Shown here in pieces: positions 23,130 through 52,793 of a DNA stretch of 64,000 bases (positions within the stretch are counted from its first letter, which is position 1; every line of letters starts with the position of its first letter). Source of the DNA: Paracoccus saliphilus (GTDB taxonomy: Bacteria; Pseudomonadota; Alphaproteobacteria; Rhodobacterales; Rhodobacteraceae); the NCBI GenBank assembly GCA_003255745.1, contig KZ836061.1, positions 305-64,304 on the forward strand. The letters run 5' to 3'. The notes below the pieces were generated by a model that was not told where the DNA came from, did no database searches, and saw nothing but the letters and a program-made list of their open reading frames with translations. Position numbers and translations under genes: made by a program.

Positions 23130-24797
23130 TCAAATACAGGAAGCGGCCGTGTCGGCGCGCACCCAAAGCGCGCCATAGGCCGGCAGGTCCAGCGCCAGGC
23201 TTCCGTTTTTTTGCAATTCCACCTCGCCCTTACCCAGCAAGTGCCGCAGCCCCTGCCACTGTGCTGTTCCGTCAAATGCACATGATGTCTTAATGGGGCT
23301 GTCGGCCAAGTTGTGCAGCAGCAGCACCACGCGGTCGGCCCAGTCATAGCGCAGACCAAAGATCGACGGCTCGGGGAAGGGGATGAACTGCCAGTTACCG
23401 AAGGCGATTTCGGGGGTTTCACGCCGGCGCCGGATCAAGCGTTCGCTCCAGTTCAGCATCGAATCCGGGTCCTGCTCCTGTTGTGCGACATTCACCGTGG
23501 CCGGTCCCCATTGCTTGCCCTGCACGACCGGCCTGCGCAGGTCATGCGGTGCCGCGGTCGAAAAGCCGCCGTTTTCCTTATCCGACCACTGCATCGGTGC
23601 CCGCACGCTCATGCGGCCGGGGATATCCAGGTTCTCGGCCATTCCGATCTCTTCGCCATAGAACAGCACCGGCGCCCCCGGCAGCGAAAAGACGAGGCTG
23701 TAGAGCATCCGGATGCGGTCCTGGTTTCCCTTCATCATCGTCGGAACCCGCCGGCGCAGGCCGCGGCCGAACAGCTGCATGTCCTTCTTGGGACCAAAGG
23801 CCTTGAAGACCTCCTGACGCTCGGCCTCGGTCAGCTTGTCCAGCGACCATTCATCGTGATTGCGTGCGAAATGCGCCCAGGCATCGTCGGGGTGAAGAGT
23901 GGGCATCGCCCGCAGGGAATGCACCAGCGGACCGGCATCCTCACGTACCACGGACAGGGCAAGTGATTGGTTCAGGTTGAAGTCGAGGCACATGTTCAGC
24001 TCGCCCCCGCCGTCATTGCCGTAAAAGCGGCGGACATCCTCGTATTCCAGATTCACCTCGCCCAGCAGGATTGCATCCCCGCGCCGCCGCCCGATGAAGG
24101 ACCGCAGGTCACGCAGCCAGTTGTGCGGATCCAGAGCCATAGGCGCCGCGATCCCGTCCGTCTCCAGCAGGAAGGGCACCGCATCGACCCGAAAGCCCGA
24201 CAGCCCGATCTCCAGCCAGAAACCCACGATCTTGCGGATTTCGTCGCGGACCAAGGGGTTGCTGATGTTCAGGTCAGGCTGATGCTTGTAGAACCGGTGA
24301 AGGTAAAACTGCCCCGTCGGCTCGTGCCATTCCCAGTTGCTGTTCTCGGCATCGGGAAAGACCAGCCCCTCGGGTCCTTGTTCCGGGATCTGGTCGCGCC
24401 ACACATACCAGTCACGATGGGGGGATTCCCGGCTTTCGCAGGCGGACTTGAACCAGGGGTGCTGGTCCGAAGTGTGGTTGACGACCAGGTCCGCAATCAC
24501 CCGGATGCCACGGTCCCTGGCCGTGCGCACGAATTCAACGAAATCGCCCATGCTGCCAAGCACAGGATCGATGCTGTAGTAATCCATGATGTCATAACCA
24601 TCATCCCGATTGGGCGAAGGATAGAACGGCATCAGCCAGACGCAGGTCACACCCAGGCCGGCCAGATGGTCGATCCGGTGGGCAAGGCCGTCGAAATCCC
24701 CGATGCCGTCACCGTTGCTGTCTTGGAACGTTTCAACATCCAGGCAATAGAAGATCGCGTTCTTCCACCAAACGTCGCTGGTGCGGCTCATGTCCAT
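23130..24797 (-). CDS. GH13 alpha-amylase-family enzyme (trehalose-synthase-like)
   Basis: Alpha-glucan-active enzyme of 555 residues with a (beta/alpha)8 barrel. Region I is DLVVNHTSDQHPWF; the nucleophile is Asp205 (GFRVDAVP), the acid/base Glu247 (LLGEVNLEYEDV) and the third acid Asp315 (FARNHDEWSLDKLT). The NHDEWSLDKLT block and FYGEEIGMAENL resemble trehalose synthase (maltose to trehalose) and related glucosyltransferases, so isomerase or transferase activity is as likely as hydrolysis. No signal peptide is present. ATG 24797 has AGGAG at 7-base spacing; the frame extends 66 codons upstream without homology. Trehalose synthesis would fit the nearby stress genes. Confidence 0.88.
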   Translation of the reverse strand: MDMSRTSDVWWKNAIFYCLDVETFQDSNGDGIGDFDGLAHRIDHLAGLGVTCVWLMPFYPSPNRDDGYDIMDYYSIDPVLGSMGDFVEFVRTARDRGIRVIADLVVNHTSDQHPWFKSACESRESPHRDWYVWRDQIPEQGPEGLVFPDAENSNWEWHEPTGQFYLHRFYKHQPDLNISNPLVRDEIRKIVGFWLEIGLSGFRVDAVPFLLETDGIAAPMALDPHNWLRDLRSFIGRRRGDAILLGEVNLEYEDVRRFYGNDGGGELNMCLDFNLNQSLALSVVREDAGPLVHSLRAMPTLHPDDAWAHFARNHDEWSLDKLTEAERQEVFKAFGPKKDMQLFGRGLRRRVPTMMKGNQDRIRMLYSLVFSLPGAPVLFYGEEIGMAENLDIPGRMSVRAPMQWSDKENGGFSTAAPHDLRRPVVQGKQWGPATVNVAQQEQDPDSMLNWSERLIRRRRETPEIAFGNWQFIPFPEPSIFGLRYDWADRVVLLLHNLADSPIKTSCAFDGTAQWQGLRHLLGKGEVELQKNGSLALDLPAYGALWVRADTAASCI

Positions 24798-25235: not shown

Positions 25236-25257
25236 GACCGGCGGACCTCAGCCGGTC
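25236..25257 (-). terminator. weak hairpin around the stop of the AckA-PduL gene
   Basis: GACCGGC / GCCGGTC with an 8-base loop that includes the stop codon of the minus-strand gene. No T-run, so this is only a weak terminator candidate. Confidence 0.3.
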
Positions 25258-27026
25258 GGGCGCGCCTCGACATCGCGAAGCAGTTCGCCCTCGGCCGTGC
25301 CGCTGATCCCTGCGGCATTGGCCTCGTCCGTGTCGATATGCATCTCGGTGAAAGCTGCTGGGGAAACCCGTACCAGACAGCGCGCGAAGGTCAGGCCCCG
25401 TCCGTCCCGGCCCAGGACTTCGACATCCACAAGATCGGCGTCTTCCAGCCCCATCCGCGCCGCGTCCTGCGGGTTGGTGTGGATGTGCCGCGCCGCCACG
25501 ATCAGGCCGTCCGTGTCCAGTTGGCCCGCCGGGCCGATCAGGCGCACCCGCGGCGTCCCGTCCAGCTGGCCGCTGTCCCGCACGGGCGCGTCAATCCCCA
25601 AGGCAAAGCTGTCGGTGCGCGACACTTCGATCTGGCTCCGCGGTCGCAGCGGTCCGAGGATGGCCACGTGTTCCAGCCGCCCCTTGGGACCTTCGATGGC
25701 AATGCGCTCTGCCGCGACCCAGTTTCCCGGCTGCCGCAGCGGGGCCGCCTGCGTCAGGTGGTATCCCGGCCCGAACAGCGCCTCCACCGCTTGCGCCGAC
25801 AGGTGGACATGCCGGCCCGACACCGCGACCGGGATATGGATCGGCTTCACCGGCCTGCGTGCCAAGGTCTGCGCAACTTCGCGCGCGATCATCAGCTGTT
25901 CGGCCGTTTCCGTCACGATCACGCGGACGCGGCTGCCATAGGACTGGATCTGAGGTGCCGCACGGCCCTTCAGGTTGATGCCGGCATTGAGGTCGTGGTC
26001 CAGTTCCAGCCCCATGAAGCCCAGCCCGTCGCAGATCCGCCGTCGCATCGACGCCGAATTTTCCCCGATGCCGCCGGTAAAGACCAAGGCGTCCGCCCCG
26101 CCCATGGCCGCCGCATAGGCGCCCACGTATTTGCGCGCCCGGTAGGCATAAAGGTTGATGGCGGCCTGCGCATCGGCGTTGCCGACCGCCGCGCGATCTT
26201 CGACATCCCGCATGTCTGCGCTGCCGGTCAGGGCCTTCAGGCCACTGTCGTTGTACAGGGTATTCTCGATCTGCGGTATCGTCAGGCCAAGTTGCCGATG
26301 CAGGAAGCCGAAGGCCCCCGGATCGACATCTCCGGACCGGGTGCCCATTACCAGCCCCTCCAGCGGCGTCAGCCCCATCGAACTGTCGATGCTGATGCCG
26401 CGCTGAATGGCGCAGGCGCTGGCACCGTTGCCGAGGTGCAGGCTGATGATGCGCAGATCCGCCAGGGGCTGTCCGATTTCCTCGGCCGCGCGGTGGGCGA
26501 CATACTTGTGCGAAGTCCCGTGGAATCCGAACCGGCGTAGCCCCACCTGCCGCCAGCTTGTCGGAACGGCATATGTGGTGGCCCGGCCGGGATTGGTCAG
26601 GTGGAAGGCCGTGTCGAAGACGGCCACTTGCGGCAGATCCGGCCACAGTCCCCGCGCCAGCCGGACCGCCACCAGGTTGGCGGGATTGTGCAGCGGCGCC
26701 AACGGGGTCAGGGCCTCGATCGCGGCGATGGCCGCATCGTCCAAAAGCGCGGGCGCTGCAAAGCCCTGCCCTCCATGTGCGATCCTGTGGCCGACCGCCT
26801 GAAGTCCCGCCAGGCCACGGCGCCGAAGAACACCGGGAACCGCCGCGATGGCGGCCGCCAGGTCGGCATGCGGCGCATGGCCCTTTTCGCTGTCGGTGTC
26901 GTGAAATGCGTAATCACAGCCGCCGTCGCGAAAGCGATCGAAGCTGCCCTTGAACAGCTGCTTGTCGTTTTCGAAGATCCCGAACTTCAGGCTGGAGCTG
27001 CCCGCGTTGAAGACCAGAATTCTCAT
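25248..27026 (-). CDS. acetate kinase - PduL phosphotransacylase fusion
   Basis: Single 592-residue polypeptide joining two enzymes of the acetyl-CoA/acetate route. Residues 1-390 are acetate kinase: NAGSSSLKF at 7-15, GHRIAHGG at 79-86 (Arg81), FDTAFH at 137-142, FGFHGTSHKYV at 166-176, LHLGNGAS, GTRSGDVDPG (Arg230) and TGGIGENS (Glu322). Residues ~397-573 are a PduL-type phosphate acyltransferase with its metal-binding blocks SGRHVHLS (403-410), AARHIHTNPQDA (511-522) and EMHIDTDEANAAG (561-573). It would couple acyl-CoA plus phosphate to ATP plus acetate or propionate. AAGGA lies about 8 bases before ATG 27026. No microcompartment genes are nearby. Confidence 0.93.
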   Translation of the reverse strand: MRILVFNAGSSSLKFGIFENDKQLFKGSFDRFRDGGCDYAFHDTDSEKGHAPHADLAAAIAAVPGVLRRRGLAGLQAVGHRIAHGGQGFAAPALLDDAAIAAIEALTPLAPLHNPANLVAVRLARGLWPDLPQVAVFDTAFHLTNPGRATTYAVPTSWRQVGLRRFGFHGTSHKYVAHRAAEEIGQPLADLRIISLHLGNGASACAIQRGISIDSSMGLTPLEGLVMGTRSGDVDPGAFGFLHRQLGLTIPQIENTLYNDSGLKALTGSADMRDVEDRAAVGNADAQAAINLYAYRARKYVGAYAAAMGGADALVFTGGIGENSASMRRRICDGLGFMGLELDHDLNAGINLKGRAAPQIQSYGSRVRVIVTETAEQLMIAREVAQTLARRPVKPIHIPVAVSGRHVHLSAQAVEALFGPGYHLTQAAPLRQPGNWVAAERIAIEGPKGRLEHVAILGPLRPRSQIEVSRTDSFALGIDAPVRDSGQLDGTPRVRLIGPAGQLDTDGLIVAARHIHTNPQDAARMGLEDADLVDVEVLGRDGRGLTFARCLVRVSPAAFTEMHIDTDEANAAGISGTAEGELLRDVEARPTG

Positions 27027-27338
27027 CTCGTCATCCTTTCCCGCCGTGATGCGCACCTGTCAGGACCATGACGGACCGCACCGATATCGTACAGCCTTCC
27101 GAGCGCCCCGATGGTTCATGGGCAGGGCGGAAGAGGTCCGACGGCATCAGGGACACTGTGACGTTCCCGACAACGCGCCAGGTTCTCTGGCGCACGTCCG
27201 GCCTTGGCGAGACCTGAGGCGCGGGGGCTCCTTTGTTTATGGCGGACTGCCGGACTGCCGGGCCAGACGCGGCAGGATCTTCTGCCCGTGAAGCCGACCA
27301 TCTGACGGTTGCGTCAGCCCGCCAGCATCCTTGGAACC
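27027..27338. other. spacer upstream of the AckA-PduL gene
   Basis: 312 bp between two minus-strand genes. It is long enough for a separate promoter for the fusion gene. I see no coding signal or strong palindrome. Confidence 0.4.
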
Positions 27339-28358
27339 TTACCCGTCGCGCCGCGCGGTGCTGGCGCGGGGGATCAGCCGAAAGCCCAGATCAACCGAAC
27401 TGCCGCGGTCGGGTCCGACCCCGGCCAGCCGGCTGCGGATCAGCCCGACAGCCTGGCGGCCCATCGAAAAACGGTCTGTTGCCACCGAGGTCAGGGGCGG
27501 TTCGGCAGCGGACATCATTTCATGATCGTTGAAGCCGCAGATGCCAAGCTGCACCGGCACACGGATGTTGCGGCGCCGCGCCTCGAACAGCACGCCAAGG
27601 GCCAGGTCGTCGTTGTTGCACAGGACCGCGTCCGTCATCGGCCATCGCGCCAGCAGATCGGCCAGAAGGCGGCATCCCAGGCTGACGGACGAAGGCTCGG
27701 GTGTGGTGACGACCGGATCGTCGTCCAAGCCCGCGTCAGCCAGACAGGCGCGAAATCCGGCCAGGCGTCGCTGGCTGCGCGGGTCCATCTGCGCCCCAAG
27801 AAAGGCCGGCGCCCGATATCCCTGCGCCAGAAGATGCGCCGCCCCGGCACGGGCGCCCTGGAAATGGGACAGGCCCACCGCCAGGTCGATGGGCGCGGGT
27901 CCCACCTCCATGATCTGGACGACCGGGCAGTCGGCCCCCTCCAGCAGGCGGCGCGCGACCGGCGACTGGTCATGCCCGGCCACGATCAGGCCCGCCGGGC
28001 GCTGCGACAGGAAAACCCGGATCAGGTCCTCTTCGGTCGTGGGGGAATAGCGTGTCGTGCCAAGTTGCACCCCCAGTCCGCTGCCCTGCAACCCTTCGTC
28101 GATGCCGCGCATTACATCAGCAAAGACGTTGTTGCTGACCGAGGGGATGATGACCCCGATGATGTCGGTCCGCCCCGATGCCAAGGCCCGCGCCGCAGGG
28201 TTCGGGACATAGCCCAGTTCGTGGATCGCGCGATCGATCCGAGCCCGCGCCTCGACCGACACCTTGTCGGGATTGCGCAGCGCCCGAGACACCGTGATAG
28301 GGCTGACATCGGCGGCAAGGGCGACGTCAGAAAGGGTGATCTTGGGTGTTTTGTTCAT
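27339..28358 (-). CDS. gntR: LacI/GntR-type repressor of gluconate genes
   Basis: LacI-family repressor of 339 residues. The helix-turn-helix and hinge (ITLSDVALAADVSPITVSRA, NPAARALASGRTDIIGVIIP) are at the N-terminus; a periplasmic-binding-like effector domain follows (VVQIMEVGPAPIDLAVGLSH, CNNDDLALGVLFEARRR). IMEVGPAPIDLAVG and SHFQGARAGA are typical of the gluconate repressor GntR subgroup. It is divergent from gluconokinase and a TRAP transporter; the 100-bp spacer contains a perfect 16-bp palindrome over the opposing promoter. Gluconate or gluconate-6-phosphate is the likely inducer. Confidence 0.88.
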   Translation of the reverse strand: MNKTPKITLSDVALAADVSPITVSRALRNPDKVSVEARARIDRAIHELGYVPNPAARALASGRTDIIGVIIPSVSNNVFADVMRGIDEGLQGSGLGVQLGTTRYSPTTEEDLIRVFLSQRPAGLIVAGHDQSPVARRLLEGADCPVVQIMEVGPAPIDLAVGLSHFQGARAGAAHLLAQGYRAPAFLGAQMDPRSQRRLAGFRACLADAGLDDDPVVTTPEPSSVSLGCRLLADLLARWPMTDAVLCNNDDLALGVLFEARRRNIRVPVQLGICGFNDHEMMSAAEPPLTSVATDRFSMGRQAVGLIRSRLAGVGPDRGSSVDLGFRLIPRASTARRDG

Positions 28359-28400
28359 GATTTTGACAAACTACCTGTTCCAGAGCGGAAATAAAGAGGC

Positions 28401-28430
28401 TTGACGCATGACAGCGCTGTCATTCATGAT
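28401..28430 (+). promoter_or_regulatory. gntK promoter with embedded LacI-type operator
   Basis: A perfect palindrome ATGACAGCGCTGTCAT covers 28408-28423. TTGACG (28401-28406) just before it and CATGAT (28425-28430) just after it read as -35 and -10 elements with an 18-base spacer, so the operator fills the spacer. The layout resembles GntR operators of enteric bacteria (ATGTTACCGGTAACAT type). Repressor binding would directly block RNA polymerase. Confidence 0.72.
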
Positions 28431-28458
28431 TGCGCCGTCATCTGAGGGGGGAGACAAT

Positions 28459-28989
28459 ATGCACACGCGGCCGATCCTGGTCATGGGCATCTGCGGCACC
28501 GGCAAGTCGACGGTGGCCCGCGGTATTGCCGACCGCATCGGCGGCTGCTTTATCGAGGCGGACCTGTTTCACGATCAGGCCAGTGTGGCCCGAATGCGTG
28601 CCGGGCAACCCTTGACCGACGACATGCGGTGGGGCTGGCTGGACAGGTTGGGCGCGGCGCTTGCCGCGGCGCCGCGGCGCGGGGTGCTGGCCTGCTCGGC
28701 CCTGGGGGTTGCGCATCGCGATCGCCTGCGTGCGACTGCCGGGCCGTTGGACATCGTGTTCCTGCATGGCGAGCGCAGCCTGATCGAGGCGCGGATGAAC
28801 GCACGCCAGGGCCACTACATGCCGGCAAGCCTGATCGACAGCCAGCTTGAGGCGCTGCAGCCGCCTGACCCCGCGGCCGAGGGTGCCCTGTGGATCAGCG
28901 TCGCGTTGCCCCCCGAACAGATCATCGACCATGCGACCGAGACCTTTGCCTCGTCGCCACGTTTTTCAACCGGAGGAGAGACCCAATGA
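28459..28989 (+). CDS. gntK: gluconokinase
   Basis: Phosphorylates D-gluconate to 6-phosphogluconate for the Entner-Doudoroff or pentose phosphate route. It has 176 residues, the usual GntK size. The P-loop is MGICGTGKSTVA (residues 9-20); FIEADLFHD, the GWLDRL region, LACSALGVAHRDRLR and LHGERSLIEARMNARQGHYM (typical GntK substrate/lid segment) follow. ATG 28459 has a GGGGGAGA ribosome site. Its TGA overlaps the ATG of the TRAP receptor gene, so kinase and transporter are translationally coupled. Repression by the divergent LacI-family protein is expected. Confidence 0.93.
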   Translation: MHTRPILVMGICGTGKSTVARGIADRIGGCFIEADLFHDQASVARMRAGQPLTDDMRWGWLDRLGAALAAAPRRGVLACSALGVAHRDRLRATAGPLDIVFLHGERSLIEARMNARQGHYMPASLIDSQLEALQPPDPAAEGALWISVALPPEQIIDHATETFASSPRFSTGGETQ

Positions 28990-30008
28990 CCAACCTGACC
29001 CGCCGCAGCCTGCTGGCCGCCACGGCCGTTCTTGCACTGGCCGCACCTGGCTTGGCGCAAGAGCACAGCTTCCGCTTCCAGTCCTCGGACCCGTCCGGCA
29101 ACCCGAACTTTGTCCTGCAGCAGGGATGGGCCGCCGACGTGGCCGAAAAGTCGGGCGGTCGCATCGCCATCAACCTTTTGCCGGTGGAATCGATCGTCGC
29201 GCATAATGAAACGCAGGACGCCATCGCCACCGGCATTTTGGACGGGCACGTCACCGACCTTTCCTATTTCTCGGGCAAGGACCCGGCCTTCGGCCTGATG
29301 GGCAACCCGGTTGGCGCTTGGTCGAACCCGGAACAGATGCTGGACTTCGTCGAGAACGGCGGCGGCTCCGAATTGCTGAACGAGATCATGAACCCCTATG
29401 GCCTGCAGTTCATCGGTGCCACGACACCGGGGCTGGAGGCGCTGGTCAGTGCCGTGCCGCTTGACAGCGTGGAGGACCTGCAGGGCGTCAAGATCCGCGC
29501 ACCGGAAGGCCTGGTGCAGTCGGTCTTTGCGGCCGCCGGCGCGTCGCCCGTCAACCTGCCAGGGTCAGAAGTGTTCACGTCGCTTGACAAGAAGGTCATC
29601 GACGCTGCTGACTATACGGTGTTTTCGACCAACCAGGCACAGGGCCTGAACGAGATCGCACCGCATCCCGTCTACCCGGGATTCCATTCGATGCCCTTGG
29701 TCGAGATTTCGATGAACAAGGACAAGTGGGACGCGCTGCCCGAGGACCTTCAGCAGGTGATGACGCAGTCGGTCCGCGACTTTGCCCGCGTCCAGGTTGC
29801 GGCATTGGCCGAGGCCGACGAGGCGGCTGTGGAAAAGGCGCGTGAGAGCGGCACGATCACCATTCACGATTGGTCCGACGAAGAGCGTGCCAAGTTCCGC
29901 AAGATTGCACAGGGCGAATGGGAAAAGGTCGCCAGCCAGTCGCCGGCCGCGCAGCGCGTTTATGATGCGCTGACGGCCTATCTCACCGAAAAAGGCTTGG
30001 TGCAGTAA
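28986..30008 (+). CDS. TRAP transporter solute receptor (DctP family)
   Basis: Periplasmic receptor of 340 residues with a Tat-like signal peptide (NLTRRSLLAATAVLALAAPG) cleaved near LAQE. The mature part has the DctP pattern, including the Arg-containing ligand site (VKIRAPEGLVQSVFAAAGAS) and PGSEVFTSLDKKVIDAAD. ATG 28986 overlaps the gntK stop. Gluconate is the probable ligand, inferred from gntK and the gluconate-type repressor. A 9-bp hairpin lies between this gene and the permease genes. Confidence 0.9.
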   Translation: MTNLTRRSLLAATAVLALAAPGLAQEHSFRFQSSDPSGNPNFVLQQGWAADVAEKSGGRIAINLLPVESIVAHNETQDAIATGILDGHVTDLSYFSGKDPAFGLMGNPVGAWSNPEQMLDFVENGGGSELLNEIMNPYGLQFIGATTPGLEALVSAVPLDSVEDLQGVKIRAPEGLVQSVFAAAGASPVNLPGSEVFTSLDKKVIDAADYTVFSTNQAQGLNEIAPHPVYPGFHSMPLVEISMNKDKWDALPEDLQQVMTQSVRDFARVQVAALAEADEAAVEKARESGTITIHDWSDEERAKFRKIAQGEWEKVASQSPAAQRVYDALTAYLTEKGLVQ

Positions 30009-30018
30009 GCACCGCCAG

Positions 30019-30041
30019 ACCGGGCGCCCGGTGCGCCCGGT
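30019..30041 (+). terminator. hairpin between TRAP receptor and permease genes
   Basis: ACCGGGCGC / GCGCCCGGT with a 5-base loop, 10 bases after the receptor stop and without a T-run. The position matches the hairpin in the tct operon. Confidence 0.6.
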
Positions 30042-30059
30042 TCATCAAGGGGGGGAACC

Positions 30060-30614
30060 ATGGACGCACCTGAAGTCATGCCGCGCGAGGAACATCATGC
30101 CGTGCCGGAGTCGGGAGGCTTGGGCCGCTGGATCGACCGGCTGGCCCTGATCCCGGCCTTTGGGCTGGTCCTGGCCATGCTGATCTTGATCCAGGAGGTC
30201 ATCCTGCGCTATGTCTTCGGCCGTCCGACGAACTGGGCGCACGAGACGACCGTCTTTCTTTGCGCCATTTCGTTCGTCTATGGCGGGTTGCTGTGCACGG
30301 CACGGGACCGCCATATTCGCGTCGTGCTGCTCTATGACATGCTGCCGCCCGGTCCCCGCCGGATGGCCGACATCGTGATCTCGGCCATCTGCGCATTGTC
30401 CTCGGGCGCCTTTGCCTGGGCCGCCTGGCAGATGGTCAAACGCGCAGCGTGGCGTCCCGATGGCAGCTTTCATCTGGAAACGTCGGGCAGCGCATGGAAC
30501 CCTGCCTTTCCCGGCATCCTCAAGATCCTGCTGATGGTGGCCTTGGGGGTCATGGCGCTTCAGTTCCTGATCCTGGCCATCAACTACGCCCGCGGGCCGA
30601 AGGGGGCGAACTGA
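30060..30614 (+). CDS. TRAP transporter small permease (DctQ family)
   Basis: Small membrane subunit of 184 residues with four predicted helices (about 30-50, 65-83, 105-125 and 150-172). EVILRYVFGRPTNWAHE and the FVYGGLLCTARDRHIRV segment are the DctQ signature. A purine-rich AAGGGGGGA precedes ATG 30060. Its stop overlaps the ATG of the large permease (CTGATGG), so the two are coupled. It pairs with DctM in the inner membrane. Confidence 0.9.
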   Translation: MDAPEVMPREEHHAVPESGGLGRWIDRLALIPAFGLVLAMLILIQEVILRYVFGRPTNWAHETTVFLCAISFVYGGLLCTARDRHIRVVLLYDMLPPGPRRMADIVISAICALSSGAFAWAAWQMVKRAAWRPDGSFHLETSGSAWNPAFPGILKILLMVALGVMALQFLILAINYARGPKGAN

Positions 30615-31930
30615 TGGAAGTTTTCGGATCGCTGCAGGCACTGGGGATCGAAACCGGGACCCTGGTCCTGTTCGCCATGCTGCTGGGCCTTCTGGTCACC
30701 GGCATCCCGCTGGCCTTTGTAACGCTGCTGGTCACGCTGATCTTCGCGCTTGGCTGGTTCGGCCCGAACGTGGTGCCGCTGATCACCAGTCGCGTCTATT
30801 CCTTTGTTTCCAGCTTTGTCTTTGTTTCGGTGCCGATGTTCGTGCTGATGGCGGCGATCCTGGACCGCAGCGGCATCGCCCGCGACCTGTTCGAGGCGAT
30901 GCGCCTGATCGGCGGCCGCATCCGGGGGGGCGTGGCCGTCCAGACCATCTTCGTGGCCGTGATCCTGGCTGCCATGTCCGGCATCATCGGCGGAGAGGTC
31001 GTGCTGCTGGGCCTGATCGCCCTGCCGCAGATGCTGGCGCAGGGATACGACCGCAAGCTGGCGATCGGCGTCGTTTGCGCGGGCGGCAGCCTGGGAACGA
31101 TGGTGCCGCCGTCGATCGTGCTGATCATCTATGGGCTTACGGCCAACGTGTCGATCGGCGACCTGTTCACGGCAGCCTTCGTTCCCGGCTTCATGCTGGC
31201 GCTGCTTTATGTGCTCTATGTGCTGCTGCGGGCCTGGCTGACGCCCGATGACGTGCCGCCGGCGGTCACCGCGCACGTTCCCCATGCGGAAAAGCTGCGC
31301 CTGATGAAGGGGCTGTTCCTGCCCATCCTGGTGGTGGTGATGGTCCTGGGTTCGATCTATGGCGGCATTGCCTCGGTCACCGAGGCCAGCGCGGTCGGAG
31401 TGGCGGGGGTCCTGCTGTCGACGGTCATCCGCGGAGAGTTCAGCTGGGATCTGCTGAAGGGAGCTGCGATGCAGACCCTTCAGACCGTCGGCATGATTGT
31501 CTGGATCGGCATCGGAGCCTCGGCCCTGGTCGGCGTCTTCAACCTGATGGGCGGCATCAGCTTTGTTTCGCAACTGATCACGGGGATCAGCGAAAACCCG
31601 ACCGTGATCATCCTGTTCATGATGGCGATCCTGTTTGTCCTGGGGATGTTCCTGGACTGGGTCGGGATCGCGCTGCTGACCATGCCCATCTTCGTGCCGA
31701 TTATCGTCTCTCTTGGCTATGATCCGGTATGGTTCGGCGTGCTGTTCGCCATGAACATGCAGGTCAGCTTCCTATCGCCCCCCTTCGGACCGGCCGCCTT
31801 CTATCTGAAGTCGGTAACGCCCCCCGACATTTCTCTGGGCGAGATCTTTCGCGCGCTGCTGCCGTTCATCGGGTTGCAGATCATCGCGGTGGGGCTGCTG
31901 ATCCTCTTTCCTGCCATTGCGATCTACTGA
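30614..31930 (+). CDS. TRAP transporter large permease (DctM family)
   Basis: Sodium-driven transport subunit of 438 residues with about 12 hydrophobic segments. Typical DctM blocks are present: VSVPMFVLMAAILDRSGIA, AAMSGIIGGEVVLLGLIALP, AGGSLGTMVPPSIVLIIYG, TEASAVGVAG and the C-terminal VSFLSPPFGPAAFYLKSV. It works with the DctQ subunit and the periplasmic receptor encoded just upstream to import the predicted sugar acid. A perfect 14-bp hairpin after the stop closes the gluconate operon. Confidence 0.93.
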   Translation: MEVFGSLQALGIETGTLVLFAMLLGLLVTGIPLAFVTLLVTLIFALGWFGPNVVPLITSRVYSFVSSFVFVSVPMFVLMAAILDRSGIARDLFEAMRLIGGRIRGGVAVQTIFVAVILAAMSGIIGGEVVLLGLIALPQMLAQGYDRKLAIGVVCAGGSLGTMVPPSIVLIIYGLTANVSIGDLFTAAFVPGFMLALLYVLYVLLRAWLTPDDVPPAVTAHVPHAEKLRLMKGLFLPILVVVMVLGSIYGGIASVTEASAVGVAGVLLSTVIRGEFSWDLLKGAAMQTLQTVGMIVWIGIGASALVGVFNLMGGISFVSQLITGISENPTVIILFMMAILFVLGMFLDWVGIALLTMPIFVPIIVSLGYDPVWFGVLFAMNMQVSFLSPPFGPAAFYLKSVTPPDISLGEIFRALLPFIGLQIIAVGLLILFPAIAIY

Positions 31931-49103: not shown

Positions 49104-50903
49104 TCAGCTGACGTGGTGAACCTGCTGCAGCCCATAGACGGGCGTGTCGATGCCCGCCTGGCGCGCCTTCAGCTGCAGCGCCAGATACAGCGAATAATGG
49201 CGCGATTGGTGCAGGTTGCCCCCGTGGAACCAAAGCGCCTGCTGCTGGGTGGGCTTCCACATGTTGCGCTGCTCGCCCTCCCAGGGACCGGGGTCTTTGG
49301 TCGTGTTCGATCCCAGGCCCCAGCACTTGCCCACGCGGTCGGCCACATCCTGTCCGATCAGGTCGGCCGCCCATCCGTTCATGGACCCATAGCCCGTGGC
49401 ATAGACGATCAGGTCGGCAGGCAGCTCCTGCCCGTTGTCCAGTCGCACGCCGCTTTCGGTGATCTCGTTCACCTGGCCATGCGCCAGCTTGATCTTGCCG
49501 TCGATGATCAGCTGGCTGGCGCCCACGTCGATGTAATAGCCCGAACCACGGCGCAGATACTTCATGAACAGCCCCGAACCGTCATCGCCGAAGTCCAGCT
49601 GGAAGCCTGCCTTTTCCAGACCATCGTAGAAGGTCTTGTCCTTCTCCTTCATCTGCTCATAGAGCGGGATCTGCCACTGGTGCATGATCCGGTAGGGCAG
49701 CGATGCAAAGATCAGGTCGGCCTTTTCCGTCGTCATGCCGTTGGCCACGGCCTCTTCGCTGTAAAGCGCGCCCAAGCCGATCTCCATCAGGCTGTCGGAC
49801 CGCACGATATGGGTCGAGGACCGCTGCACCATGGTCACGTCCGCATCATGTTCCCAAAGCGCCGCCGCAATGTCATGGGCCGAGTTGTTCGAGCCGACGA
49901 TGACCACCTTCTTGCCGGCATAGGCGTCGGGGCCGGGATGGCCCGAGCTGTGATGCTGGTCGCCGCGAAAGCGGTCCATGCCCGGAAACTCCGGGATGCG
50001 CGGCTTGCCCGACATTCCGGTGGCCAGCACCAGGTGCCTGGGGCGCAGCACGACCTGTTCCCCGTCGCGGTCCACGACCACGGTCCATTCCTGGGCTTCC
50101 TCGTCATAGCTCGCGCGCTGGCAGGTGCTTCGCGTCCAGTAGTTCAGCTCCATGACCTTGGTGTACATCTCCAGCCAATCGCCGATCTTGTCCTTGGGCG
50201 CGAAGACGGGCCAATTGTCGGGGAACTTGATATAGGGCAGGTGATCGTACCAGACGGGGTCATGCAGGCACAGCGACTTGTAGCGTTTGCGCCAGCTGTC
50301 GCCGGGGCGGTCGTTCCTCTCGATGATGATGGTCGGCACGCCCAGTTGGCGCAGCCGCGCGCCCAGGGCGATGCCGCCCTGTCCGCCGCCGATGATCACG
50401 GTGTGCGGCTGCCGGGAATATCCCAACTCGGCGGCCTCGGCCTCGCGCTCCTCTCGCCAGCTGGGGCGGTTCTTGCCGGCGCCGTGCCTGGCACCCAAGG
50501 GCCGGTTTAAGCCCTTGGTCTCCTCGTGGCCCTTCAATTCCTGCAAGGCGGTCAGCAATGTCCAGATCCGCCCATCGCGCAGCCGGACCAGACCATAGCC
50601 TCGGCCGACCGCGGTTTCGAACTTGAACCAGGCGGTGATGACGCCGTCCTCCTCACCCGGCACCTCGGTCGGGTCCAGATGCCAGCCGGTGGGCCGGATA
50701 TGGCCCAGTTGCGCGCGCAACATTTCGGCAACCTGGTCGGGCCCCTCCATCGTGCGGATGTTCCAGGTAAAGCTGACCAGGTCGCGCCAATAGCAGTCGG
50801 TCACGAACAGGTCGCAGGCGCGGTCGATGTCGCCTGCGGCAAGCGCTTCGCCCAAGGCGTCAAGAACGGCCTGGGCGCGGGCTGCGGTGGTGGTGTCCAG
50901 CAT
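49104..50903 (-). CDS. flavin monooxygenase with N-terminal SnoaL-like domain
   Basis: Protein of 599 residues. Residues ~1-125 form a SnoaL/NTF2-like domain (VLDALGEALAAGDIDRACDL, DCYWRDLVSFTWNI). Residues ~165-599 are an FMO/Baeyer-Villiger-like monooxygenase: FAD site VIIGGGQGGIALG (169-181), ERNDRPGDSWRKRY, FxGxxxH at Phe312-His318, NADPH site VVIVGSNNSAHDIAA (333-347) and ATGYGSMNG near the C-terminus. The residue four after His318 is His, not the usual Tyr/Phe/Trp. It probably inserts oxygen into a ketone or hydroxylates a substrate. GGGAGG precedes ATG 50903. Confidence 0.88.
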   Translation of the reverse strand: MLDTTTAARAQAVLDALGEALAAGDIDRACDLFVTDCYWRDLVSFTWNIRTMEGPDQVAEMLRAQLGHIRPTGWHLDPTEVPGEEDGVITAWFKFETAVGRGYGLVRLRDGRIWTLLTALQELKGHEETKGLNRPLGARHGAGKNRPSWREEREAEAAELGYSRQPHTVIIGGGQGGIALGARLRQLGVPTIIIERNDRPGDSWRKRYKSLCLHDPVWYDHLPYIKFPDNWPVFAPKDKIGDWLEMYTKVMELNYWTRSTCQRASYDEEAQEWTVVVDRDGEQVVLRPRHLVLATGMSGKPRIPEFPGMDRFRGDQHHSSGHPGPDAYAGKKVVIVGSNNSAHDIAAALWEHDADVTMVQRSSTHIVRSDSLMEIGLGALYSEEAVANGMTTEKADLIFASLPYRIMHQWQIPLYEQMKEKDKTFYDGLEKAGFQLDFGDDGSGLFMKYLRRGSGYYIDVGASQLIIDGKIKLAHGQVNEITESGVRLDNGQELPADLIVYATGYGSMNGWAADLIGQDVADRVGKCWGLGSNTTKDPGPWEGEQRNMWKPTQQQALWFHGGNLHQSRHYSLYLALQLKARQAGIDTPVYGLQQVHHVS

Positions 50904-51053: not shown

Positions 51054-52793
51054 TCAGCGCGGGTTCAAGCCAAGCCGCTGCATCCGCCGCAGGATGGTTG
51101 AACGGTTCACCCCCATCCGCCGCGCCGCCTGCGCCATGTTGCCGCCACAGGCCGCCAGCACGGCCTGAAGGTCCTCGGCCGCGTCGGGCAGGGGCAGCGG
51201 GTCCAGCAGCGGCGGCGGCAGGTGGTCCAGGTCGATGGTCTGCCCTTCGGCCATCAGCGCCGCAGTCTGAAGCGTGGCGGCCAGTTCGCGCAGGTTCCCC
51301 GGCCAGCGCCGGGCGCGCAGTTCAGCCTTGGCTGCGGACGTGATCCTCAGCCGGTCGCCCCCCTGCGCGCCCAGCAGCCGCGACAACAGCCAGTCGAAAT
51401 CCCGGCGCCGCCGAACAGGGGGCAGCTCCAGCGCCGCGCCCGCGATGCGAAAGAACAGGTCGGGTCGGAACAGGCCCTGCCGCACACGCGCACTCAGGTC
51501 GCTGCGGGTGGTGGCGATCACCCGCATCTTGCTGTCGGCCAGCCGCCGCAGCAACATGGCCTGCGCGGCGGCATCCAGATCCTCAACCCCCCGGACAAAA
51601 AGCGTGCCGCGTGCCTGTGGCGCCCAGTCCTGGGCGGCTAGCGCCGGGGTATCAAGGCCCGCACAATCCAACAGCCGAAAGGGCGGCGCATCGGGTTGGC
51701 ACATATGGATCGCGCGCGCCAGACGTTCCTTGCCGGTGCCTGTCTCTCCGCAGATCAGCAGCGGTACCGTGCTGCGCGCCAGCCGCGCAGCACGGTCCAG
51801 CAGCGCATGCATGACCGGATCGGCGCCTGCCAGACTGGACAGCCCGCCGGGCCGCAGCGCGGGCCCGCGCGGCAGACGCACGGTCTGGGGCGCGATCGCA
51901 TGGCCGAACAGTGCGCGCCCATCCCGCAGGCGGATCACCCGATCCTCGGTCGGGCGGCCGCGCATCAGGTCGGGCAGGTCATCCACCGACAGTTCGGCCA
52001 CCTGGTCCAGTCGCTGTCCGATCAGCGGAGTGCCTTGCCCCAGGGCGGCCTCGGCGCTGTGGGTCATGCCGATGATGCGCCCGGTCCCGTCCAGGGCGAT
52101 GGCGGCCTCCGGGTCGACCTCCAGAAATTCGGGATTGGCTGACAGCCGCAGCACCCAGTCCCGCCGCGTCAGCCCCATCAGGTTCGCCATCTCGACCCGC
52201 CGGGCCGACGCCCGCACCAGGTTCATCGCAAGGTTCTGGCTGGCCTTGGGCTGTGGCGATCGCAGCAGCGACAGGTCCAGCACCGCCGCCAGTTGCCCTG
52301 TGCTGTCAAAGATCGGTGCCGCAGTACATGACAGCGGCGTGTGGCTGAGGTCGAAATGGTCCGTCTGGTGGATGGTGATCGCTTCGCCCGTCACGATGCA
52401 GGACCCGACACCGCAGGTCCCGGCCAGCTGTTCGGACCAGTCGGCACCAAGATACAGTCCGGCCCCCCGCAGGTCATCCTCGAACCGCCGGTCGCCGAAG
52501 AAGTCGACCGTGACGCCCTTGGCATCGGCCAGCAGCAGCACGTAATTCTGCCCCGCCACCTGCCGGAACAGCGCGTCCAGCCCGGACCGCGCGATGGCGA
52601 TCAGCCGCTCGGACTGTTCGCGATGGCTGCGCAGTTCGGCCTCGGTGACGATATGGGCGGGCGAGGGACGCGACGGATCAAGGCCATAGGTTTCCACGCA
52701 GCGCCGCCAACTGTCGGACACGACGCCATCGCGTCCGGTGGCCTGCCCCCGCAGCACCTTGCCGATTTCCCTGACATGCTCGCTGTCGCGCAT
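51054..52793 (-). CDS. AcoR-like activator without GAFTGA motif
   Basis: Transcriptional activator of 579 residues. An N-terminal GAF-type sensory region (~75-180) holds GTCGVGSCIVTGEA; a PAS-like part follows; then an AAA+ domain (~320-500) with Walker A GETGTGKERLARAIH (349-363) and FRPDLFFRIAGAALELPPVR; finally a Fis helix-turn-helix (AQAARRMGVNRSTILRRM). Between Walker A and B only ~40 residues remain instead of ~70: the GAFTGA sigma-54 loop is missing and Walker B reads GTLFVRGVEDL without the Asp-Glu pair. It therefore probably works with sigma-70, as NtrC of Rhodobacter does. It precedes the FMO operon. GGGGGAGG precedes ATG 52793. Confidence 0.88.
   Translation of the reverse strand: MRDSEHVREIGKVLRGQATGRDGVVSDSWRRCVETYGLDPSRPSPAHIVTEAELRSHREQSERLIAIARSGLDALFRQVAGQNYVLLLADAKGVTVDFFGDRRFEDDLRGAGLYLGADWSEQLAGTCGVGSCIVTGEAITIHQTDHFDLSHTPLSCTAAPIFDSTGQLAAVLDLSLLRSPQPKASQNLAMNLVRASARRVEMANLMGLTRRDWVLRLSANPEFLEVDPEAAIALDGTGRIIGMTHSAEAALGQGTPLIGQRLDQVAELSVDDLPDLMRGRPTEDRVIRLRDGRALFGHAIAPQTVRLPRGPALRPGGLSSLAGADPVMHALLDRAARLARSTVPLLICGETGTGKERLARAIHMCQPDAPPFRLLDCAGLDTPALAAQDWAPQARGTLFVRGVEDLDAAAQAMLLRRLADSKMRVIATTRSDLSARVRQGLFRPDLFFRIAGAALELPPVRRRRDFDWLLSRLLGAQGGDRLRITSAAKAELRARRWPGNLRELAATLQTAALMAEGQTIDLDHLPPPLLDPLPLPDAAEDLQAVLAACGGNMAQAARRMGVNRSTILRRMQRLGLNPR

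Follow-up and report, generated by a model that had tools for sequence, protein, structure and literature searches.

A fused acetate kinase and PduL-type phosphotransacylase encoded in Paracoccus saliphilus

Introduction

Phosphotransacylases of the PduL type have no sequence relation to Pta, according to passages of Erbilgin et al., 2016 (PMC4784909), in which six zinc ligands and a phosphate arginine, Arg103, are also described for rPduL. The same passages place PduL in multidomain proteins that have no encapsulation peptides and in most cases are annotated as acetate kinases (Acks), and they propose that joining PduL to Ack may assist channelling. An earlier note on the DNA studied here, made from its letters and open reading frames, had guessed that such fusions may already be known; the guess was right, these passages having been in print since 2016. 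The relevant passages of two other papers (PMC4207490; PMC10823632) do not mention an Ack-PduL fusion, and no assay of an AckA-PduL fusion was found in the literature searched, the scope of which left out most subscription journals.

The window analysed here is a stretch of 64,000 nucleotides from Paracoccus saliphilus (GCA_003255745.1, contig KZ836061.1), and it encodes one such fusion. All positions are those of the window.

Gene and domain architecture

The earlier note placed the gene at the correct coordinates; the strand, unstated there, is minus (Table 1). The ATG start is preceded by AAGGA. An alternative in-frame GTG at 27056 would give a product of 602 aa, the minus-strand open frame from 27056 to 25248 being free of internal stops, and the plus-strand frame across 25248-27026 is a shadow frame that contains a stop. 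Pfam and NCBIfam matches to both enzymes fall within this one chain, so that AckA and PduL are joined in frame as had been claimed. The Acetate_kinase model scores 416.9 bits (PF00871, Pfam cut-off 22) and TIGR00016 400.5 bits (NCBIfam cut-off 293.4); the PTAC model scores 220.2 bits (PF06130, Pfam cut-off 25) and the phosphate propanoyltransferase model NF011652 226.2 bits (NCBIfam cut-off 209). The Pfam limits agree to within a few residues with the domain limits first proposed (1-390 and 397-573).

Table 1. Features of the AckA-PduL fusion gene in the window
Feature	Position	Strand	Basis or remark
AckA-PduL fusion gene	25248..27026	minus	592 aa, ATG at 27026
Acetate/propionate kinase domain, residues 3-382	25881..27020	minus	PF00871, TIGR00016
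PduL-type phosphotransacylase domain, residues 399-574	25305..25832	minus	PF06130, NF011652, structure 5cuo
Linker, residues 387-396	25839..25868	minus	Sequence variable, length nearly fixed
Ala83, acyl-pocket position	26778..26780	minus	Ala88 in TdcD, Val93 in AckA
His406-Val-His408, zinc-1 ligands (rPduL His48/His50)	25803..25811	minus	5cuo alignment; passages of PMC4784909; 72/72
Glu467, zinc-1 ligand (rPduL Glu109)	25626..25628	minus	5cuo alignment; passages of PMC4784909; 72/72
His514-Ile-His516, zinc-2 ligands (rPduL His157/His159)	25479..25487	minus	5cuo alignment; passages of PMC4784909; 72/72
His563, zinc-2 ligand (rPduL His204)	25338..25340	minus	5cuo alignment; passages of PMC4784909; 72/72

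An AlphaFold2 model built from a 72-row alignment has a mean pLDDT of 89.1 and a pTM of 0.83. Its AckA half matches AckA, TdcD and PduW structures with target TM values of 0.86-0.92 (rows 1-26 of the matches; 39-44% identity), and its PduL half matches 5cuo at 0.95-0.96. The two are connected by about ten variable residues. The mean share of the majority residue over positions 387-396 is 0.29, the lowest among the tabulated stretches, against 0.69-0.73 in the domain cores, and the spacing from A381 to P399 stays within 17-22 residues in all 72 fusions. This near-constant length hints at a fixed geometry, without proving one.

Conserved catalytic residues

The window protein was aligned with the 71 complete fusions among the best 80 relatives (eight truncated or broken fusions and a Bacillus PduL having been dropped), to which it is 42-78% identical. 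In the AckA half, N7, R81, H113, D138, H169, R230 and E376 are invariant in 72 of 72 fusions. All but H113 align with N7, R91, D148, H180, R241 and E384, catalytic residues of the Methanosarcina thermophila acetate kinase. Passages of PMC4390882 and PMC3475010 support part of these role assignments, the former naming Asn7 of the M. thermophila enzyme. In the PduL half, H406, H408, R461, E467, H514, H516 and H563 are likewise invariant (72/72), R461 being the equivalent of rPduL Arg103 in the 5cuo alignment. The key residues of both enzymes are thus intact, as the earlier note had maintained. Variation is found around them, in the PduL lid (P433 in 59/72 and G434 in 67/72 fusions) and in the AckA pocket (L112 in 70/72, P221 in 65/72).

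The acyl pocket

The position at which the window protein carries Ala83 is Ala88 in Escherichia coli TdcD and Val93 in E. coli AckA; it is also Ala in KpAckA (PduW; 7fj7). Of the 72 fusions, 30 have Ala here and 42 have Val; of the 13 other fusions of the genus, ten have Ala and three have Val. The motif is readable in five of eight standalone Rhodobacteraceae AckAs, and all five have Val. As a residue shared with TdcD but ambiguous among relatives, Ala83 may be taken as a lead toward C3 use, not as proof of it.

Distribution among relatives

Five fusions supplied their C-terminal ends (PduL and, in most, the last AckA residues) for a pattern scan of genome contigs, which gave at least 586 matching stretches, at least 567 of them relatives; the best 80 were kept. 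AckA and PduL share one open frame in 79 of these best 80 of at least 567 relatives, a figure that is not a prevalence, since the query was derived from fusions and its top-scoring relatives were kept. A Bacillus PduL that stands alone (L095) is the one exception; among the 79, seven lack an AckA start near a contig end and one (L085) is broken inside AckA. By record titles, the best-80 fusions span Rhodobacteraceae, Mesorhizobium, Rhizobium, Devosia, Gammaproteobacteria, Saprospiraceae and other Bacteroidota, Planctomycetota, Myxococcales and Thermoanaerobaculia. The objection that a sequencing error had removed a stop between the domains is ruled out by this recurrence. That an assembly error fused two neighbouring genes is likewise vanishingly improbable: no point in its favour was found, and the same one-frame architecture is present in all 13 other regions fetched from the genus.

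Sampling by taxon gives a different picture of frequency. The PTAC domain was found in 14 of 125 genomes of the genus, always in frames of 603 aa or longer. Some match was found in 103 of 149 genomes of the family, nearly all of them to the AckA half, and a match across both halves in three of the 149, including that of the window. In the class sample, PTAC was found in three of 385 genomes (one below cut-off), and in the phylum sample in seven of 398, four with frames no shorter than 603 aa and three with frames of 211-216 aa. The lineage count that the earlier note had proposed therefore places the fusion in several phyla, rare and patchy where sampled. Given this patchiness within genus and family, the fusion is dispensable.

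Among 72,556 plasmid records, 402 had a match and four covered at least 80% of the query. Of three of these four, those in Paracoccus and Polaromonas are intact, and the one on a Sinorhizobium plasmid (L013:9001-10798) has lost its frame in the PduL part. Another broken fusion, on an Ensifer plasmid (L015:5941-6756), has lost most of AckA and is disrupted at its end. One Myxococcales contig carries a pair of AckA-PduL fusions (L084 and L101) separated by about 20 kb.

Genome context

In the window genome (173 contigs; listed completeness 100) the fusion is the only match to PF00871 and the only match to PF06130. Two PTA_PTB domains were found, both within proteins of the NADP-malic-enzyme type, whose only listed NCBIfam match, NF009501, lies below cut-off in both. 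The fusion is the sole candidate found for a Pta-Ack route in this organism. No match to the microcompartment shell domain PF00936 was found in the genome, in agreement with the absence of microcompartments asserted earlier. AcsA was found once above cut-off, with another AcsA-like frame (650 aa) scoring below it. Neither the phosphoketolase domain XFP_N nor Xsc above cut-off was found in the genome, the absence of Xsc being the weaker of the two since control genomes also gave no above-cut-off match; a supply of acetyl phosphate from phosphoketolase or sulfoacetaldehyde is accordingly unsupported in this organism.

The fusion gene lies 0.3 kb past a LacI-type regulator gene and 0.45 kb ahead of a TreS-like GH13 gene, all on the same strand, and is probably its own transcription unit. 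The downstream gene (23130-24797, minus strand) encodes a trehalose-synthase-like GH13 enzyme that scores 523 bits against TIGR02456, below the cut-off of 678.35. On the other side, 27339-31930 holds the LacI-type regulator and then, running divergently, genes for a gluconokinase and a TRAP transporter; together they probably form a cluster for the uptake of gluconate. Farther away, a flavin-monooxygenase-like protein is encoded at 49104-50903 (minus strand), residues 1-167 of which have no NCBIfam match, and its gene adjoins that of a DhaR-like regulator (51054-52793; below the model cut-off).

Neighbourhoods of the fusion in relatives do not form one conserved operon, a possibility rejected because the commonest non-shadow neighbour within 8 kb occurs in just 17 of 85 loci. 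That neighbour is a P-type ATPase (17/85; Pfam-checked in L013, L014 and L029), and the link is weak since the ATPases belong to different classes. An ABC-transporter ATPase family is present in 11 of 85 loci (Pfam-checked in L034), likely by chance given the size of that family, and several other neighbour clusters (at most eight loci) are common to close relatives only. By BLAST cluster, a phosphoketolase lies within 8 kb of the fusion in seven of 85 loci. In L036, L056 and L060 the two genes share a strand and are some 80-100 bp apart; in L028, L038 and L134 the phosphoketolase is on the opposite strand, and it is matched only in part in L013 and in L030, where it sits at a contig end. Pfam confirmation was confined to L036 and L134. 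L134, which is outside the 85, has both a P-type ATPase and a phosphoketolase near its fusion. In such loci acetyl phosphate could enter the enzyme without passing through acetyl-CoA.

Upstream regions of 77 loci were scanned for TTGAT-N4-ATCAA, the consensus of the FNR/Anr-type box. No perfect box was found; four sites had one mismatch (1.2 expected) and 16 had two (11.0 expected), the expectation being drawn from whole-locus frequency. Since such words may be commoner between genes than across whole loci, the case for FNR/Anr-type boxes is unconvincing, and upstream of the fusion in the window no box with two or fewer mismatches was found. In five Rhodobacteraceae loci (L039, L040, L045, L047 and L053) a sequence resembling the FNR box, differing from it at one or two letters, lies at -66 to -71 relative to the start of the fusion.

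Evolution of the two halves

Tree distances of the AckA and PduL halves are strongly correlated over 93 fusions (r = 0.889, against at most 0.14 in 500 shuffles), a set that holds six genomes twice; without the six duplicate copies, r = 0.882 over 87 fusions (at most 0.106 in 500 shuffles). The correlation, to which the shared ancestry of the organisms contributes, says no more than that the two halves have for the most part stayed together. In the AckA-half tree, which has few outgroups, the eight standalone Rhodobacteraceae AckAs form a separate split (support 0.996), and no split parts all ten standalone AckAs from all fusions. A split with support 0.896 groups the ten with one unusual fusion (L104/L135), apart from the other fusions. 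The PduL split, with four standalone sequences, L019 not among them, and few outgroups, has support of 0.378. L019 itself (genome G030) is a PduL without AckA in frame whose nearest tree relatives are the PduL halves of Gemmobacter fusions; it may derive from a fusion by loss of the AckA half.

The unusual fusion (L135:145-2481, plus strand; genome G434) is a 778-aa protein with a cNMP_binding domain (58 bits, cut-off 27.5) ahead of AckA and PduL, an architecture seen in this one genome only, and its pocket residue is Thr. Because it groups with standalone AckAs at 0.896, it may represent a separate fusion event, and its domain composition would suggest cyclic-nucleotide control of the enzyme. 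PTAC was found in two of 120 sampled genomes of its order; the other (L142) is a plain AckA-PduL protein with 46 open-frame residues ahead of AckA.

Discussion

With its joined domains, intact catalytic residues, single copy and conserved architecture, the fusion is best read as a soluble bifunctional enzyme working outside microcompartments and catalysing acyl-CoA + Pi + ADP <-> acid + CoA + ATP, a reading to which we give a probability of roughly 0.8 and under which activities, direction and solubility are all predicted. The C-terminal PduL domain would exchange the CoA of a short acyl-CoA, acetyl- or propionyl-CoA, for phosphate, and the kinase domain at the N-terminus would transfer the phosphoryl group of the acyl phosphate to ADP, yielding ATP and the free acid; fusing the halves may help to hand over or contain the acyl phosphate. 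Counting against this reading are the patchy occurrence of the fusion, the variation in the lid over the PduL active site and in the AckA pocket, and the lack of an evident operon with an acyl-CoA pathway at the window locus. Overflow with ATP formation would be the likelier net direction because AcsA exists for activation of the acid. The same enzyme run in reverse, converting one ATP to ADP in order to take up acetate or propionate, is unlikely, although PTAC and Ack can run toward activation of acetate to its CoA thioester (passages of PMC4784909), since the genome has both the AcsA and the AcsA-like frame. Somewhat less unlikely is that the enzyme acts mainly on C3 substrates, as a valve from propionyl-CoA to propionate and ATP. 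Ala83, as in TdcD and KpAckA, points this way, as do the TdcD variants A88V and A88G, made and solved with propionate according to their PDB titles, the description of M. thermophila Val93 as an acetate-binding determinant (passages of PMC4390882) and the family name of PduL, phosphate propanoyltransferase. However, the residue varies even among close relatives, StAckA accepts propionate despite its Val93, with a roughly tenfold preference for acetate (passages of PMC3475010), and no propionyl-CoA gene is evident beside the fusion.

Whether the bifunctional enzyme would also channel its intermediate, as the earlier note expected for acetyl or propionyl phosphate, is a matter on which opinion can be evenly divided. 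Fusion may fix only a 1:1 dosage and co-location, with acyl phosphate equilibrating with the bulk; the variable linker sequence, and the fact that nothing was observed bridging the two sites, are consistent with this, while the nearly fixed linker length argues against it. A far more elaborate possibility, and a quite doubtful one, is a true channelling machine whose geometry is set by linker length and which retains acyl phosphate, uncoupling ATP formation from acyl-phosphate signalling; the Ala/Val choice at position 83 would then have retuned the enzyme in different lineages between disposal of propionyl-CoA and use of acetyl phosphate supplied by phosphoketolase, with one lineage, that of the cNMP fusion, brought under cyclic-nucleotide control. 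As one natural protein chain that would carry out acyl-CoA + Pi + ADP -> acid + ATP, the bifunctional enzyme would offer a compact test of channelling by enzyme fusion and a convenient ATP-forming module for engineering, and is more a bench target than a discovery.

Comparison with known systems

An equal net reaction is carried out in one enzyme system by the ADP-forming acyl-CoA synthetases, which belong to unrelated families and use a phospho-enzyme route. The ackA-pta system of E. coli, where the net reaction is established, is alike in that reaction but uses two separate proteins. The window protein shares with AckA, TdcD and PduW the whole AckA fold and the catalytic residues, and differs from them in its added C-terminal phosphotransacylase; its pocket Ala is that of TdcD and PduW. 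Fold, zinc ligands and phosphate arginine are likewise those of microcompartment PduL (R. palustris, 5cuo), whereas the PduL of the window is fused behind AckA, has no encapsulation peptide (only about ten variable residues separate it from AckA) and comes from a genome without a shell domain match, so that it lacks both features by which a microcompartment PduL is recognised.

Closest of all are the Ack-PduL proteins of PMC4784909, passages of which describe the same two enzymes in one chain, with a PduL that has no encapsulation peptide; the architecture and the channelling idea were thus already known. Those passages give no list of fusion members, distribution or assay. Added here are the distribution, the genome context of the window member, the invariant sites, the near-fixed linker length, the Ala/Val split in the pocket, the phosphoketolase neighbours of some relatives and one cNMP-AckA-PduL protein.
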